Below are positions 1,668-7,260 of a DNA stretch of 64,000 bases, in pieces. Position 1 is the first letter of the stretch, and every line of letters starts with the position of its first letter. The notes beneath the pieces are model-generated. The model did not search any database. It saw nothing but the letters and a program-made list of their open reading frames with translations, and was not told the origin of the DNA. Source of the stretch: Bacillota bacterium (lineage in GTDB: Bacteria; Bacillota; Dethiobacteria; Dethiobacterales; Dethiobacteraceae); assembly GCA_018725565.1 (NCBI GenBank), contig QLUR01000005.1, positions 1 through 64,000 on the forward strand. The letters run 5' to 3'. The position numbers and the translations under genes are program-made.

Positions 1668-3137
1668 ATGCATAAACTGCTTGACTTGGTCTGCTCCAAA
1701 AGTCTTTCTAATTGGCAGCAGAGAGCACAAGAGGCATTTGATGAGCTGTTTGGGTCGAATAGCGGCCGTTACGCCAAAGCGGCAGAAAAAGCAGTAACAC
1801 TGCGGGCGCCAGAAATGGCTGGCGGTGGCGTGCCGTTTGCTGCCCTTATCCACCCATCGAATCCATCTTCAGGACCGTATGGCGGAACCAGTTTTGTTCT
1901 CTTCCCGAGCGAAAATACACCCTGTCTCATCACAATGGTAGTAGGTACGCAGGGTCTAAGCCCCGACGAGGAAATTCTTAGCCGTCCCGGGCATGGGCGC
2001 AGAGTTGCCGCTATCTGCAGGTGGCTTAATCAAAGTCACGGCAATGGCAAGATGGTAGCATGGTCAAAACATGACCCCACCCGCATAGACCTCGATATTC
2101 CGCAAAACATAGCTGCCAATTTTGAAGGCTACCGGGAAGCACTGAGACGGTACGGCAAGGTAATATACGGGATTTATGCCCCCGGTGAAGACCGCAGTTT
2201 AACTGCTAAGGCGCTAAAATCCCTGCTTGATCTGGCGATGAAGGAAAGAGGCTGCCAGCCGTTGCAGGCGTACGCGCAAGATGCTAAGGAAATTGAGAAC
2301 TTATACTTTGCTCATATGCTTCCAAGCTATAGCCGTGAACAGGTTGCCTCTATACTAGAAGAGAGGCGCTATGTAATACTTCAGGGACCGCCGGGAACCG
2401 GGAAGACCTACATGGCACTTGAGTTGCTGTCTAATAATTATCAGGGGCGCGGCTTCTCCGTACAACTTCACCCAAACACTACTTACGAGAACTTCGTTGG
2501 CGGGCTTGCGCCTGTAGAGTCCGACAAGGGAATGGGTTTTAGGTTTGCTCCCCTAAAGGGACACCTAATGCAGGCGATTGAAAAAGCACTTGATGAACCT
2601 AACAAAACTTTTCTCTTGCATATAGATGAGATTAATCGTGCAGATTTAGGCAAGGTATTAGGAGAAGCTATCTTTTTACTGGAACCGCAACCAGGAGAAG
2701 AGAGACTTGTGCAGTTGCCTTATGATTTTGACAGCCCTTTTGGATGCAGTCTACGGATTCCGCGGAACCTGCATATCATTGGCACCATGAACACTGCAGA
2801 TCGCAGTATAGCTCTTGTCGACATTGCGGTACGGCGACGATTTAGCTTCTGCAATTTATGGCCAGAACCAAGCGTGGTAAAAGCCCATGGCTGTGAATTT
2901 ATGCAAGAGGCGTTTATTGGGCTTTTAGACCTGTGGGTGGAATATGCCAATGAGGAGTCCTTTGCGTTGATGCCTGGACACTCCTACTTTCTTGAGAAGG
3001 ATGAAAGCCGGGCCCATCGCCGATTGAAACAAACCCTACTACCTCTGTTGGAAGAGTACTTGGCCCAAGGCTATGTAGCTAGTTTTGCGGGAGCAATACG
3101 CGGTTACATTCAGCAAATTGAAAGTTTGTCAAACTAA
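1668..3137 (+). CDS. McrB-like AAA+ GTPase/ATPase of a McrBC restriction system
   Basis: This is the motor subunit of a modification-dependent restriction system, which powers DNA translocation for its McrC nuclease partner. The AAA+ module has Walker A GPPGTGKT at about residues 240-247, a Walker B LLHIDEINRAD, and the McrB-type sensor GTMNTADRSIALVDIAVRRRF (key parts NTADRS and RRRF). The N-terminal ~210 residues are not the classic E. coli McrB DNA-binding domain. They contain a GGTSFVLFPSE stretch and an RPGHGRR stretch and probably read the target. I chose the ATG at 1668 because GAGAGGAA sits eight bases upstream; an in-frame ATG at 1635 lacks a site. The mcrC-like gene follows three bases after the stop. 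Confidence 0.85.
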   Translation: MHKLLDLVCSKSLSNWQQRAQEAFDELFGSNSGRYAKAAEKAVTLRAPEMAGGGVPFAALIHPSNPSSGPYGGTSFVLFPSENTPCLITMVVGTQGLSPDEEILSRPGHGRRVAAICRWLNQSHGNGKMVAWSKHDPTRIDLDIPQNIAANFEGYREALRRYGKVIYGIYAPGEDRSLTAKALKSLLDLAMKERGCQPLQAYAQDAKEIENLYFAHMLPSYSREQVASILEERRYVILQGPPGTGKTYMALELLSNNYQGRGFSVQLHPNTTYENFVGGLAPVESDKGMGFRFAPLKGHLMQAIEKALDEPNKTFLLHIDEINRADLGKVLGEAIFLLEPQPGEERLVQLPYDFDSPFGCSLRIPRNLHIIGTMNTADRSIALVDIAVRRRFSFCNLWPEPSVVKAHGCEFMQEAFIGLLDLWVEYANEESFALMPGHSYFLEKDESRAHRRLKQTLLPLLEEYLAQGYVASFAGAIRGYIQQIESLSN

Positions 3138-3140
3138 CCA

Positions 3141-4604
3141 ATGGCTGCTAAAGTAAGACAAAGGCAGTCACCTTTCAGACAGCAGGCAAGGTTGCAGCAA
3201 CGAGCGATTTTAGAAATTGAAGACTCTGGTCAGTCGCGCATCAAAGCGGCAGAATTTCTCTTGTCCTCAAGCGCTGCCCGGGATCCGGAAGCACAGGCAG
3301 CTGTCTTAGCTACCCAGTTTGTAACACAAAACAGAGGGATACTCAGGAACTTTGGAACTTCTGCAGATGTCGCATACAATGGGCGCTCCGTCGACATTAT
3401 CCTCAAAGCCAGTACTCAGGTAGGTGCGCTGCCTCTTGTTTCTCCTTTATCAGGCAAGCCAGACTATGGCCTGATCATTAAGCCTAGGTTTCAGTGGTCA
3501 GGAATAGGATTGATGTTAGGGAAAATGGGGTGGAAGATTAGTCCTTCCTTAGTTAGGCTTCCATTACTCCCGCAGTCAGACCGTAAAATACCCCCCTGGG
3601 TCTTATCTTCTGCCATTCTTGCGCGAATAGCAGAATTGCTGTCGAGCATGGAACGACGATTCGAGTTCACAGAAGCATCTTGCCGGGCGCCTGTCGGAAC
3701 AGTACTTTGGTCGCAATATGCGATGCATAAGATGCCTGCTGCGCGGTTTTTAGATATTCCTTGTCGATTTCCCGACCTTAAAGATGATAAGGAGTTGCTC
3801 GCAGCCATCAATTATACACTTCGGAAGCAACTCGTAAGTCTAGAAGGCCAGCGACAGACTGGCGGTGTGGTTTTGCAGCTTATAGATCTGTGCCAGCACC
3901 TGATAGCCAAGTGTCAAGGTGTTGTTCCGCGCTGGCCGTCAAAGACGGTCGTAGAGTCTTGGTACAAAGGGCCATTCAGAGCTGAGGTATTCAAAGCTGG
4001 CGTTCAGGCGATGGAGTGGACAGTTGATGAGCGAGGTCTGGCGGGGACAGGGACCTTGCAGGGACTGCCCTGGATTATGTCGATGGAGGCATTTTTTGAG
4101 GCCTGGATCGAAACTGTAGTTGCTCAGCTCTCAAAACGCATTGGCGGGACCATGCGCGCAGCAAGGAAAAGGGAGACTATCGCTCCTCTAAACTGGTATC
4201 CTCCATATAGCGGTTCCCAGCGGTATTTGGCGCCGGATATAGTTCTTGAACGGGAGAATGAGACAATTGTCTTTGATGCCAAGTACAAGAGCCATTGGGA
4301 AGACATCAGCTGGGAGAAGTGGGGCGACATTAATGAAGAAGTGAGAGAGCAGCATCGGATAGATTTATTGCAGGTACTCGCTTATTCTACCCTTTCAGAC
4401 GCCAAGAAGAACACGTGTTGTTTGGTATACCCTTGCCGCAGCAATACCATTGAATCACTCCGCAGGCGAGGGAGGACAATGCATAGAGCATATGTTGGAA
4501 TTGGCTCGAGACAAGTCAAACTGCTACTTTTGGCTGTACCTATGAACAGCAGTTTTGAGGATACACTGGCCACATTGGTAGAGGAACTTCGAAGTGCTAA
4601 ATAG
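3141..4604 (+). CDS. McrC-like PD-(D/E)xK nuclease subunit
   Basis: This is the nuclease partner of the upstream McrB-like protein. The C-terminal third has the PD-(D/E)xK signature: LAPDIVL with Asp366, then IVFDAKYK with Asp379 and Lys381, followed by a helical HRIDLLQVLAYS stretch usual in McrC nuclease domains. The first ~300 residues probably form the arm that contacts the McrB hexamer. At 487 residues it is longer than E. coli McrC (about 350). The ATG is three bases after the mcrB-like stop and has no strong ribosome site, so translation is probably coupled. All visible active-site residues are present, so the system may be functional. Confidence 0.82.
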   Translation: MAAKVRQRQSPFRQQARLQQRAILEIEDSGQSRIKAAEFLLSSSAARDPEAQAAVLATQFVTQNRGILRNFGTSADVAYNGRSVDIILKASTQVGALPLVSPLSGKPDYGLIIKPRFQWSGIGLMLGKMGWKISPSLVRLPLLPQSDRKIPPWVLSSAILARIAELLSSMERRFEFTEASCRAPVGTVLWSQYAMHKMPAARFLDIPCRFPDLKDDKELLAAINYTLRKQLVSLEGQRQTGGVVLQLIDLCQHLIAKCQGVVPRWPSKTVVESWYKGPFRAEVFKAGVQAMEWTVDERGLAGTGTLQGLPWIMSMEAFFEAWIETVVAQLSKRIGGTMRAARKRETIAPLNWYPPYSGSQRYLAPDIVLERENETIVFDAKYKSHWEDISWEKWGDINEEVREQHRIDLLQVLAYSTLSDAKKNTCCLVYPCRSNTIESLRRRGRTMHRAYVGIGSRQVKLLLLAVPMNSSFEDTLATLVEELRSAK

Positions 4605-5385: not shown

Positions 5386-5500
5386 TTTCTTTGGTCTTTA
5401 AAGGTCAGCTATTTTTGCATCTGCATTATTGCATATATACCTGCGTTTTGTTAAGATAGCAGTAAGAAAACAAACTCTTACCTGGGAGGTATTACTTACT

Positions 5501-5722
5501 ATGAAGCCTACCAAAATGACATCCAAGGGGCAAATAACCTTACCATCTGAACTTAGGAAAAAACTAGCTCTGCAGCCCGGAGACAAGGTTCAGATTGCCG
5601 AAAGTCCTCATGGCTACATTGTTAAAAAATATGCCGCTCCTTCTCCGTTTACGCAGTATGTCGGTTTTTTGCAGAAGAAACAACGGACAGACGATATAAT
5701 AGAAGAGCTTCGCAGCAAATGA
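5501..5722 (+). CDS. AbrB/MazE-type antitoxin
   Basis: The product is a 73-residue swapped-hairpin DNA-binding protein. TSKGQITLPSELRKKLAL followed by GDKVQI is the classic AbrB/SpoVT N-terminal fold used by VapB antitoxins. The C-terminal tail (QYVGFLQKKQRTDDIIEELR) probably wraps the toxin. The ATG at 5501 has GGGAGG about ten bases upstream; a longer frame from 5429 has no site. It overlaps the downstream PIN gene by four bases (ATGA), the usual toxin-antitoxin arrangement. It likely represses its own promoter. Confidence 0.8.
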   Translation: MKPTKMTSKGQITLPSELRKKLALQPGDKVQIAESPHGYIVKKYAAPSPFTQYVGFLQKKQRTDDIIEELRSK

Positions 5723-6201
5723 TCATCGCTATTGACACAAGTATTATCCTGGATATCCTTCTGCCGGACCCGGTTTACGCAGAGGCCTCGAAAATGCTGT
5801 TGGACAAGGCTGTTAATCTTGGCGGGTTCGTATTGTGTGAGGCCGTATATGCCGAGGTGGCAACCCAGTTTCCTTCTTACGGCGCCTTGCGTGATTTTCT
5901 GCTAAAAACACGCCTACGACTCTTCCCTTCCGAAGAAAATTCGCTATGGCTTGCCTCTCAGGCCTGGGGACGTTACACAAAACAGAGGGGCAGACAACTG
6001 CAATGCCCGCAGTGCGGGGCAAAAACAAGCATATACTGTTCCTGTGGCGCCAATTTATCTGCAAGGCAGCATATTCTCAGCGATTTTTTGATTGGGGCCC
6101 ACGCGCAAATTCAGGCAGATACCCTCTTGACACGCGACCGCGGCTTCTATAATACATATTTCCCTGAATTAAACCTAAACTTGCAGCGGAGCAGTTTATA
6201 A
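5719..6201 (+). CDS. VapC-like PIN-domain toxin with zinc-ribbon insert
   Basis: The product is a 160-residue PIN-domain ribonuclease. Acidic residues typical of PIN active sites are visible: Asp6 in IAIDTS, Glu in CEAVYAEVA, Asp in LSDFLIGAHA and Asp in LTRDRGFY. Between the core helices there is an insertion with four cysteines (Cys96, 99, 107, 109; CPQCG then CSC), which looks like a zinc ribbon. Canonical VapC (about 130 residues) lacks it. The gene is translationally coupled to the AbrB-type antitoxin. The cleaved RNA target cannot be told from sequence. Confidence 0.8.
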   Translation: MIIAIDTSIILDILLPDPVYAEASKMLLDKAVNLGGFVLCEAVYAEVATQFPSYGALRDFLLKTRLRLFPSEENSLWLASQAWGRYTKQRGRQLQCPQCGAKTSIYCSCGANLSARQHILSDFLIGAHAQIQADTLLTRDRGFYNTYFPELNLNLQRSSL

Positions 6202-6373
6202 GTTCCGGCATGTCGGCCGCCTGTCTGCCAGTTATTTTAATATCCGCATGCGCTTTCAGAAAAGCGCAGATTTTTTCGACATTTTCAGATCAGGTTGCTG
6301 ATGATTGCTCCATGTTGCTGCAAAATTATGGTATAATGATTTTATCAGCTTCACTTCTTCGGAGGGACTTATT

Positions 6374-6670
6374 ATGCTGCCAGGCAACCTTCATAAATTT
6401 TTCTGGGAACATCCCGTTGACACACTTGATGAAGACAGGCACAAAGGCTTTGTTATCGAGCGCCTGCTGGAACACGGCGACGATGAGGCTGTCAGATGGA
6501 TATTTCGCCGCTATGAGCGCGCGGATATCCTGGAAGTCGTACGGTCCAGCCGCCGTCTCTCCCGCAAGACGGCTAATTTCTGGAAAAATTATTTCCGGCT
6601 CAGGGAGGAGGATGTCTTATGTTTACGGGAGTCGTCTCCGCAGCACAGCTTGCACTCCTGGATCGATTAA
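6374..6670 (+). CDS. Small DUF6922-like protein, putative antitoxin partner of AbiEii
   Basis: The product is 98 residues: LPGNLHKFFWEHPVDTLD, then a helical segment and LSRKTANFWKNYF. It resembles the short proteins (DUF6922-like) found directly before AbiEii nucleotidyltransferases. The ATG at 6374 has GGAGGG eight bases upstream; the longer frame from 6305 has no site. It overlaps the next gene by 52 bases, which implies tight co-translation. By analogy it is the antitoxin or regulator of the pair; this is inference from order and size. Confidence 0.65.
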   Translation: MLPGNLHKFFWEHPVDTLDEDRHKGFVIERLLEHGDDEAVRWIFRRYERADILEVVRSSRRLSRKTANFWKNYFRLREEDVLCLRESSPQHSLHSWID

Positions 6671-7260
6671 AAGAACAAAGGCTGCTTGACGGCTTTTATA
6701 TGGCCGGGGGTACCGCCGCCGCACTGCAATTGGGCCACCGGAAGTCTGAGGACTTTGATTTTTTTTCTCCGGAAGAACATGATTTTGAAAAAAAAGCCAT
6801 GGCACTTGCCGGCTCCGTAAACTTTCTGGTCAGCAACTCCGGTCGGGGCGCACTGCACGGCCTTGCCGACAATATCCGCCTAAGCTTTCTTGTCTATCGC
6901 TACCCGCTCCTGTTTCCGACGGTAATGTTCAGAGGGATCGCGCTGGCGGATATCCGGGAAATAGCGCTCATGAAACTTGTGGCCGTTGCCAACCGCGGCA
7001 GCAGTAAGGATTTTGTGGACCTGTATTTTATCTGCCGACAGGTTGGCGGCTTGAGAGATTTGCTTCTAGACCTGTTTCCCCGCAAGTTTCAGGGCCGTCT
7101 TTATTCTGTCTATCACATCGTCCGCAGCCTGCAGTATTTTGATGACGCGGAGAAAGAACCTCCTCTGGACATGCTGCAGTCCTTGTCCTGGGCTGAATTG
7201 AAGCAGTTCTACCTCGGTCAAACGGAGCTGCTGACAGGGGAAAACCTCACGAGCGGCTAG
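6619..7260 (+). CDS. AbiEii/AbiGii-type nucleotidyltransferase toxin
   Basis: The product is 213 residues. The N-terminus has the nucleotidyltransferase core GGTAAALQLGHRKSEDFDFF (Gly30-Gly31, catalytic Asp45 and Asp47), the hallmark of the AbiEii/AbiGii toxin family. A later KLVAVANRGSSKDFVDLYF segment is also conserved in the family. Characterised members act in abortive infection or as toxin-antitoxin pairs, and some nucleotidylate tRNA. Overlap with the small gene upstream supports a two-gene module. All visible catalytic residues are intact. Confidence 0.82.
   Translation: MFTGVVSAAQLALLDRLKEQRLLDGFYMAGGTAAALQLGHRKSEDFDFFSPEEHDFEKKAMALAGSVNFLVSNSGRGALHGLADNIRLSFLVYRYPLLFPTVMFRGIALADIREIALMKLVAVANRGSSKDFVDLYFICRQVGGLRDLLLDLFPRKFQGRLYSVYHIVRSLQYFDDAEKEPPLDMLQSLSWAELKQFYLGQTELLTGENLTSG

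Follow-up and report, generated by a model that had tools for sequence, protein, structure and literature searches.

Here we report an unannotated family of reader domains that is coupled to McrBC throughout and has members in about 14 bacterial phyla and in one archaeon. One member lies near the start of the window, the whole stretch of 64,000 nucleotides that was analysed, in a two-gene pair that we regard as probably a McrBC-type restriction system, in which a far-diverged DUF3578/ADAM reader would bind a modified base while the GTPase and McrC would cut the DNA. All features of the pair given below are on the forward strand.

The McrB-like and McrC-like genes form a genuine, intact two-gene pair of the known McrBC kind. 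The first open reading frame (positions 1668-3137) encodes 489 amino acids that comprise an N-terminal reader domain, a linker and an AAA+ GTPase, and the second (3141-4604) encodes a protein of 487 amino acids that matches PF10117 (E=3.4e-9). Because full-length orthologues occur at 58-62% identity and relatives are found across many phyla, the pair is far beyond what chance would produce. The ATG at 1668 is the preferred start of the McrB-like protein rather than the in-frame ATG at 1635, since orthologues begin with M-x-KLLDLI at the matching position of the alignment and a Shine-Dalgarno-like GAGAGGA (1653-1659), read from the sequence, lies 8 nt upstream. When searched against Pfam, this protein matched AAA_5 (E=1.1e-13), and against PDB sequences it matched E. 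coli McrB (E=6.6e-31) from E. coli residue 94 onward. The hallmarks of McrBC membership were found in both proteins. The McrB-type AAA+ GTPase has Walker A and Walker B motifs and the NxxD signature: Walker A (GPPGTGKT, 2385-2408), IDEIN and MNTAD are conserved in the alignment, and the signature (NTAD at 2790-2801, NTAD/NSSD in the family) has the NxxD form as defined previously (PMC11090510). The adjoining McrC-like protein has a PD-(D/E)xK nuclease domain (4068-4433; P365-D366 and D379-A-K381) within its PF10117 match, in which neither D366 nor K381 varies among 48 homologues and D379 is nearly invariant. The sequence-only reading had called the motor and nuclease motifs standard, and the presence of Walker A, NxxD (MNTAD) and PD...DAK bears this out.

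That same reading had pointed to a longer arm on the McrC-like protein. The extension is real in comparison with E. coli McrC (487 versus 348 amino acids), as some 110 additional N-terminal residues (3141-3476) have no counterpart there and the alignment starts at about residue 113. However, it is no novelty: an AlphaFold2 model of the McrC-like protein (pLDDT 89) retrieved from the PDB T. gammatolerans McrC first, over its length (E=4e-15), and E. coli McrC second, and E. coli McrC itself reportedly lacks the N-terminal portion of its scaffold domain (PMC7680126), so that the arm is the ordinary long form of McrC.

Scanning one genome per GTDB species revealed 55 reader loci, distributed over about 14 phyla and one archaeon as assigned by record titles. 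These include Bacillota, Acidobacteriota, Bacteroidota, Chloroflexota, Pseudomonadota and Campylobacterota as well as Myxococcota, Verrucomicrobiota, Planctomycetota, Synergistota, Spirochaetota, Patescibacteria and others. Within the phylum of the host the reader was matched in 16 of 348 sampled genomes, and within its class in 7 of 98, one of them marginal. There was no match in annotated plasmids and phages; the reader is present on one uncultivated viral contig. In every complete homologue the domain is joined to a McrB GTPase. A downstream McrC accompanies it at 51 of the 55 loci, and of the four loci without one, three are located at contig ends. Reader, motor and McrC diverge in step, with correlations of 0.93-0.95 between their pairwise identities (reader versus McrC, r=0.94, Mantel p=0.001). 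The GTPases of the family group as a single clade (support 100/98) when placed in a tree alongside 14 further McrB-type GTPases; in this tree, for which sampling was limited, one outgroup row sits on a branch of extreme length. These sequence comparisons show that the reader has been inherited together with its motor and nuclease. Its strong conservation and its co-inheritance with the nuclease suggest a fixed target. In a Desulfofundulus locus (L036, 2316-4784) the reader, a truncated GTPase and McrC occupy a single frame of 823 amino acids, a fusion that probably arose by in-frame deletion.

The reader domain corresponds to residues ~1-200 (1668-2267). The N-terminal ~230 residues of the McrB-like protein matched nothing in Pfam-A, PADLOC, NCBIfam or PDB sequences, and PF12102 (MrcB_N, DUF3578) was absent, above the Pfam cut-off, from this protein and from all 60 homologues. 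The proposal that the N-terminal domain is non-classical is therefore upheld at the sequence level, where the domain stands outside every family described in these four collections, and its target could accordingly differ from 5-methylcytosine. The further proposal that the domain does not have the E. coli fold was not supported. We consider it probable that the reader belongs, as a far-diverged branch, to the DUF3578/ADAM (MrcB_N) superfamily and does not represent a new fold, a view that draws on structural, profile and alignment results in combination, no single test being decisive. An AlphaFold2 model of the domain (pLDDT 94.4, pTM 0.90) was compared by Foldseek with 350,542 PDB chains, and the top chain was 8ik8_A, the DNA-bound DNA-binding domain of E. 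coli McrB, although the match was weak (E=0.19, prob 0.23, TM 0.26-0.35) and of the several E. coli McrB-N chains available just one is included in the best 50 matches listed. Nothing was retrieved from the PDB at E<=0.001, nor anything from viral proteins. SRA, EVE, YTH and B3 reader folds were all missing from the best 50 Foldseek PDB matches listed.

Profile comparisons pointed in the same direction. With an HMM built from the 60 reader homologues, E. coli McrB-N ranked first (10.5 bits, E=0.068, ~2e-5 per sequence) of ~3,290 sequences, a set that included 2,000 shuffles of E. coli McrB-N and real decoys. When hhalign was forced to full length, the reader was collinear with the whole E. coli domain at 21% identity (P=0.0022). 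In an hhalign ranking of 1,550 sequences that contained 12 DUF3578 members, rank 3 fell to a PF12102 member and rank 4 to E. coli McrB-N, with decoys at ranks 1, 2 and 5. This PF12102 member was collinear with the reader over 109 columns (26% identity), across its conserved block (RPGHGRRVAAICRWL aligned to RPGMGERIRNLRQRL), and several further DUF3578 members, most of them weak individually, share one diagonal with it (VPF to VPW). Overall, hhalign P values for the DUF3578 link were about 0.001-0.002, with most single PF12102 members not significant; the bulk PF12102 profile was weak against the reader family (P=0.18, or P=0.02 with more members), and the decoy set behind these tests was modest, with several profiles tried. 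The reader likely belongs to the same superfamily as PF12102 proteins, with the same order of elements and a collinear alignment to one member, and differs from them in lacking a Pfam match and in its conserved residues.

The strongest competing view is that the N-terminal domain is a new reader fold unrelated to DUF3578, the remainder working as a McrBC restriction enzyme with a new specificity. This would accord with the lack of a significant match in Pfam, PDB sequences and Foldseek (E<=0.001), and with the finding that the most conserved block of the reader has no counterpart in E. coli McrB-N. It is nevertheless unlikely in our judgement, given that E. coli McrB-N was the best of all PDB chains and first in the HMM test, and that a PF12102 member aligns across that very block while several members fall on one diagonal.

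The block in question, GTQGLSPDEEILSRPGHGR (residues 93-111; 1944-2000), is specific to the family and ranks among the most conserved parts of the reader domain in the alignment of the 60 homologues, which yields the signature GTxGLSPDExIL(x)RPGHxR plus WxKxDP. The two motifs would be the best candidate for an altered specificity. In E. coli McrB, Y64 and L68 are the base-contact (pocket) residues. Two registers of alignment to the present reader are possible, placing Y64 at Y71 or T74 and L68 at S75 or L78, so that neither has an assured equivalent; Y71, within SGxYGG, is invariant in the reader family. A bolder interpretation, which we put forward tentatively and hold to be rather doubtful, is that the family makes up a McrBC subclass of its own, with a reader remodelled to recognise a modification that no McrB is known to read, for instance a hypermodified phage base, and with a pocket formed by the GTxGLSPDExILxRPGHxR...WxKxDP block. 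If confirmed, such a reader of another base would add to the tools for detecting modified DNA and lengthen the list of phage modifications against which hosts have a countermeasure.

For the pair as a McrBC restriction system, we propose the following mode of action by analogy with the E. coli and T. gammatolerans McrBC systems. The N-terminal domain of the McrB-like protein would bind a modified base of the incoming DNA, which it probably flips out first; the GTPase domains would assemble into hexamers and hydrolyse GTP to drive the complex; the McrC-like protein would stimulate the GTPase through its finger domain; and a dimer of its PD-(D/E)xK nuclease would cut the DNA. Base reading, translocation and cleavage by the pair are in this sense inferred. 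E. coli K-12 McrBC (EcoKMcrBC) has the same adjacent McrB (reader and GTPase) and McrC genes, the same motifs and probably a reader of the same superfamily; the present reader, however, is about 45-70 residues larger, has its own conserved block and is ~21% identical over the collinear alignment, and the present McrC is ~110 residues longer at its N-terminus. Thermococcus gammatolerans McrBC shares the long-form McrC and the motor, whereas its reader has a YTH fold and is directed at 6mA (PMC7680126); that fold was not found among the best 50 Foldseek matches of the present reader.

Since no methyltransferase is a conserved neighbour of the pair, Type IV (modification-dependent) restriction appears the most likely mode. 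When flanks of up to 6 kb were scanned for motifs, methyltransferases were flagged at 3 of ~50 loci, none recurrent, and no recurrent neighbours emerged beyond an HNH_2 nuclease (4 loci) and unrelated genes. The related proteins near these four McrBC loci (L032, 301-1191; L037, 10018-10752; L077, 10663-11604; L078, 4491-5054), of which the three scanned are HNH_2 endonucleases, are possibly another modification-dependent nuclease.

McrBC-like pairs can also be modification-blocked when paired with methyltransferases, as in LlaJI (PMC1459862), and the N-terminal domain could by that precedent, in the manner of LlaJI or BsuM, read an unmodified sequence while a methyltransferase encoded elsewhere in the genome guards the host. 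Two C5 methyltransferases do lie on contig C71 (5.6 kb) of the same assembly, where we observed a LexA-like gene, a C5 methyltransferase, a BpuJI_N/NOV_C endonuclease, a second C5 methyltransferase and Vsr. This is a full m5C restriction-modification cassette, its methyltransferases flanking their own BpuJI-type endonuclease with the Vsr gene following, which argues against a role in protecting DNA from the present pair. If the contig truly derives from the same organism, the reader should not attack the methylation pattern of the cassette, an argument that is weak because the draft assembly consists of 112 contigs and its contamination is about 4.7%. No C5 methyltransferase match was found in five other carriers of the class (5 of 6 strong carriers in all), but 81 of 98 genomes have none either, and hence nothing can be inferred from the carriers. 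Apart from the lack of any methyltransferase that recurs beside the pair, the reader of a LlaJI relative from H. pylori is a B3 fold (PMC7680126), and no B3 fold was among the best 50 Foldseek matches here. A modification-blocked system is therefore improbable. LlaJI resembles the present pair in its McrB-like GTPase and McrC-like nuclease but has accompanying methyltransferases and targets unmodified sites; membership of the LlaJI/BsuM group was rejected, there being no cognate methyltransferases in the present cassette.

Co-option of the pair for a non-restriction role, whether a cellular function or RNA targeting as proposed for CoCoNuTs, in which the McrBC relatives have RNA as their predicted target (PMC11090510), is more improbable still, given that the motor has the canonical NxxD signature versus the NxD of CoCoNuTs, that neither a coiled coil nor a HEPN nuclease was observed at the pair, that the PD-(D/E)xK residues are retained in the McrC-like protein, and that the patchy distribution (7 of the 98 genomes of the class) fits a defence gene. 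CoCoNuTs likewise comprise McrB and McrC homologues, but none of their NxD signature, coiled coils and accessory nucleases was seen at the present pair, and membership was rejected on the GTPase signature, NTAD/NSSD being NxxD. In the census of nearly 34,000 McrB homologues, treatment of several NxxD branches, namely those associated with Type I R-M, with DISARM-like systems and with methyltransferases, is left to a future paper (PMC11090510); the McrBC pair described here carries the NxxD signature, as do those branches.

The surroundings of the pair in the window offer some further observations. By eye, a fragment at 1-300 looks like the zinc-finger portion of an IS66-type transposase, which may place the pair at the border of a mobile region; the GC content of the upstream 1.66 kb is 0.44, versus 0.53 for the window. 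An open reading frame of 202 amino acids (556-1164) contains a C..C...HH HNH-like motif (ELHHPLRDGRPP) and has neither a Pfam match nor a homologue in the fetched loci. Downstream of the pair, genes for a MazE-type antitoxin and then a PIN-domain protein (5429-6201) likely form a toxin-antitoxin pair, and a DUF6922 protein followed by an AbiEii-type nucleotidyltransferase (6305-7260) likely represents a Type IV toxin-antitoxin pair.
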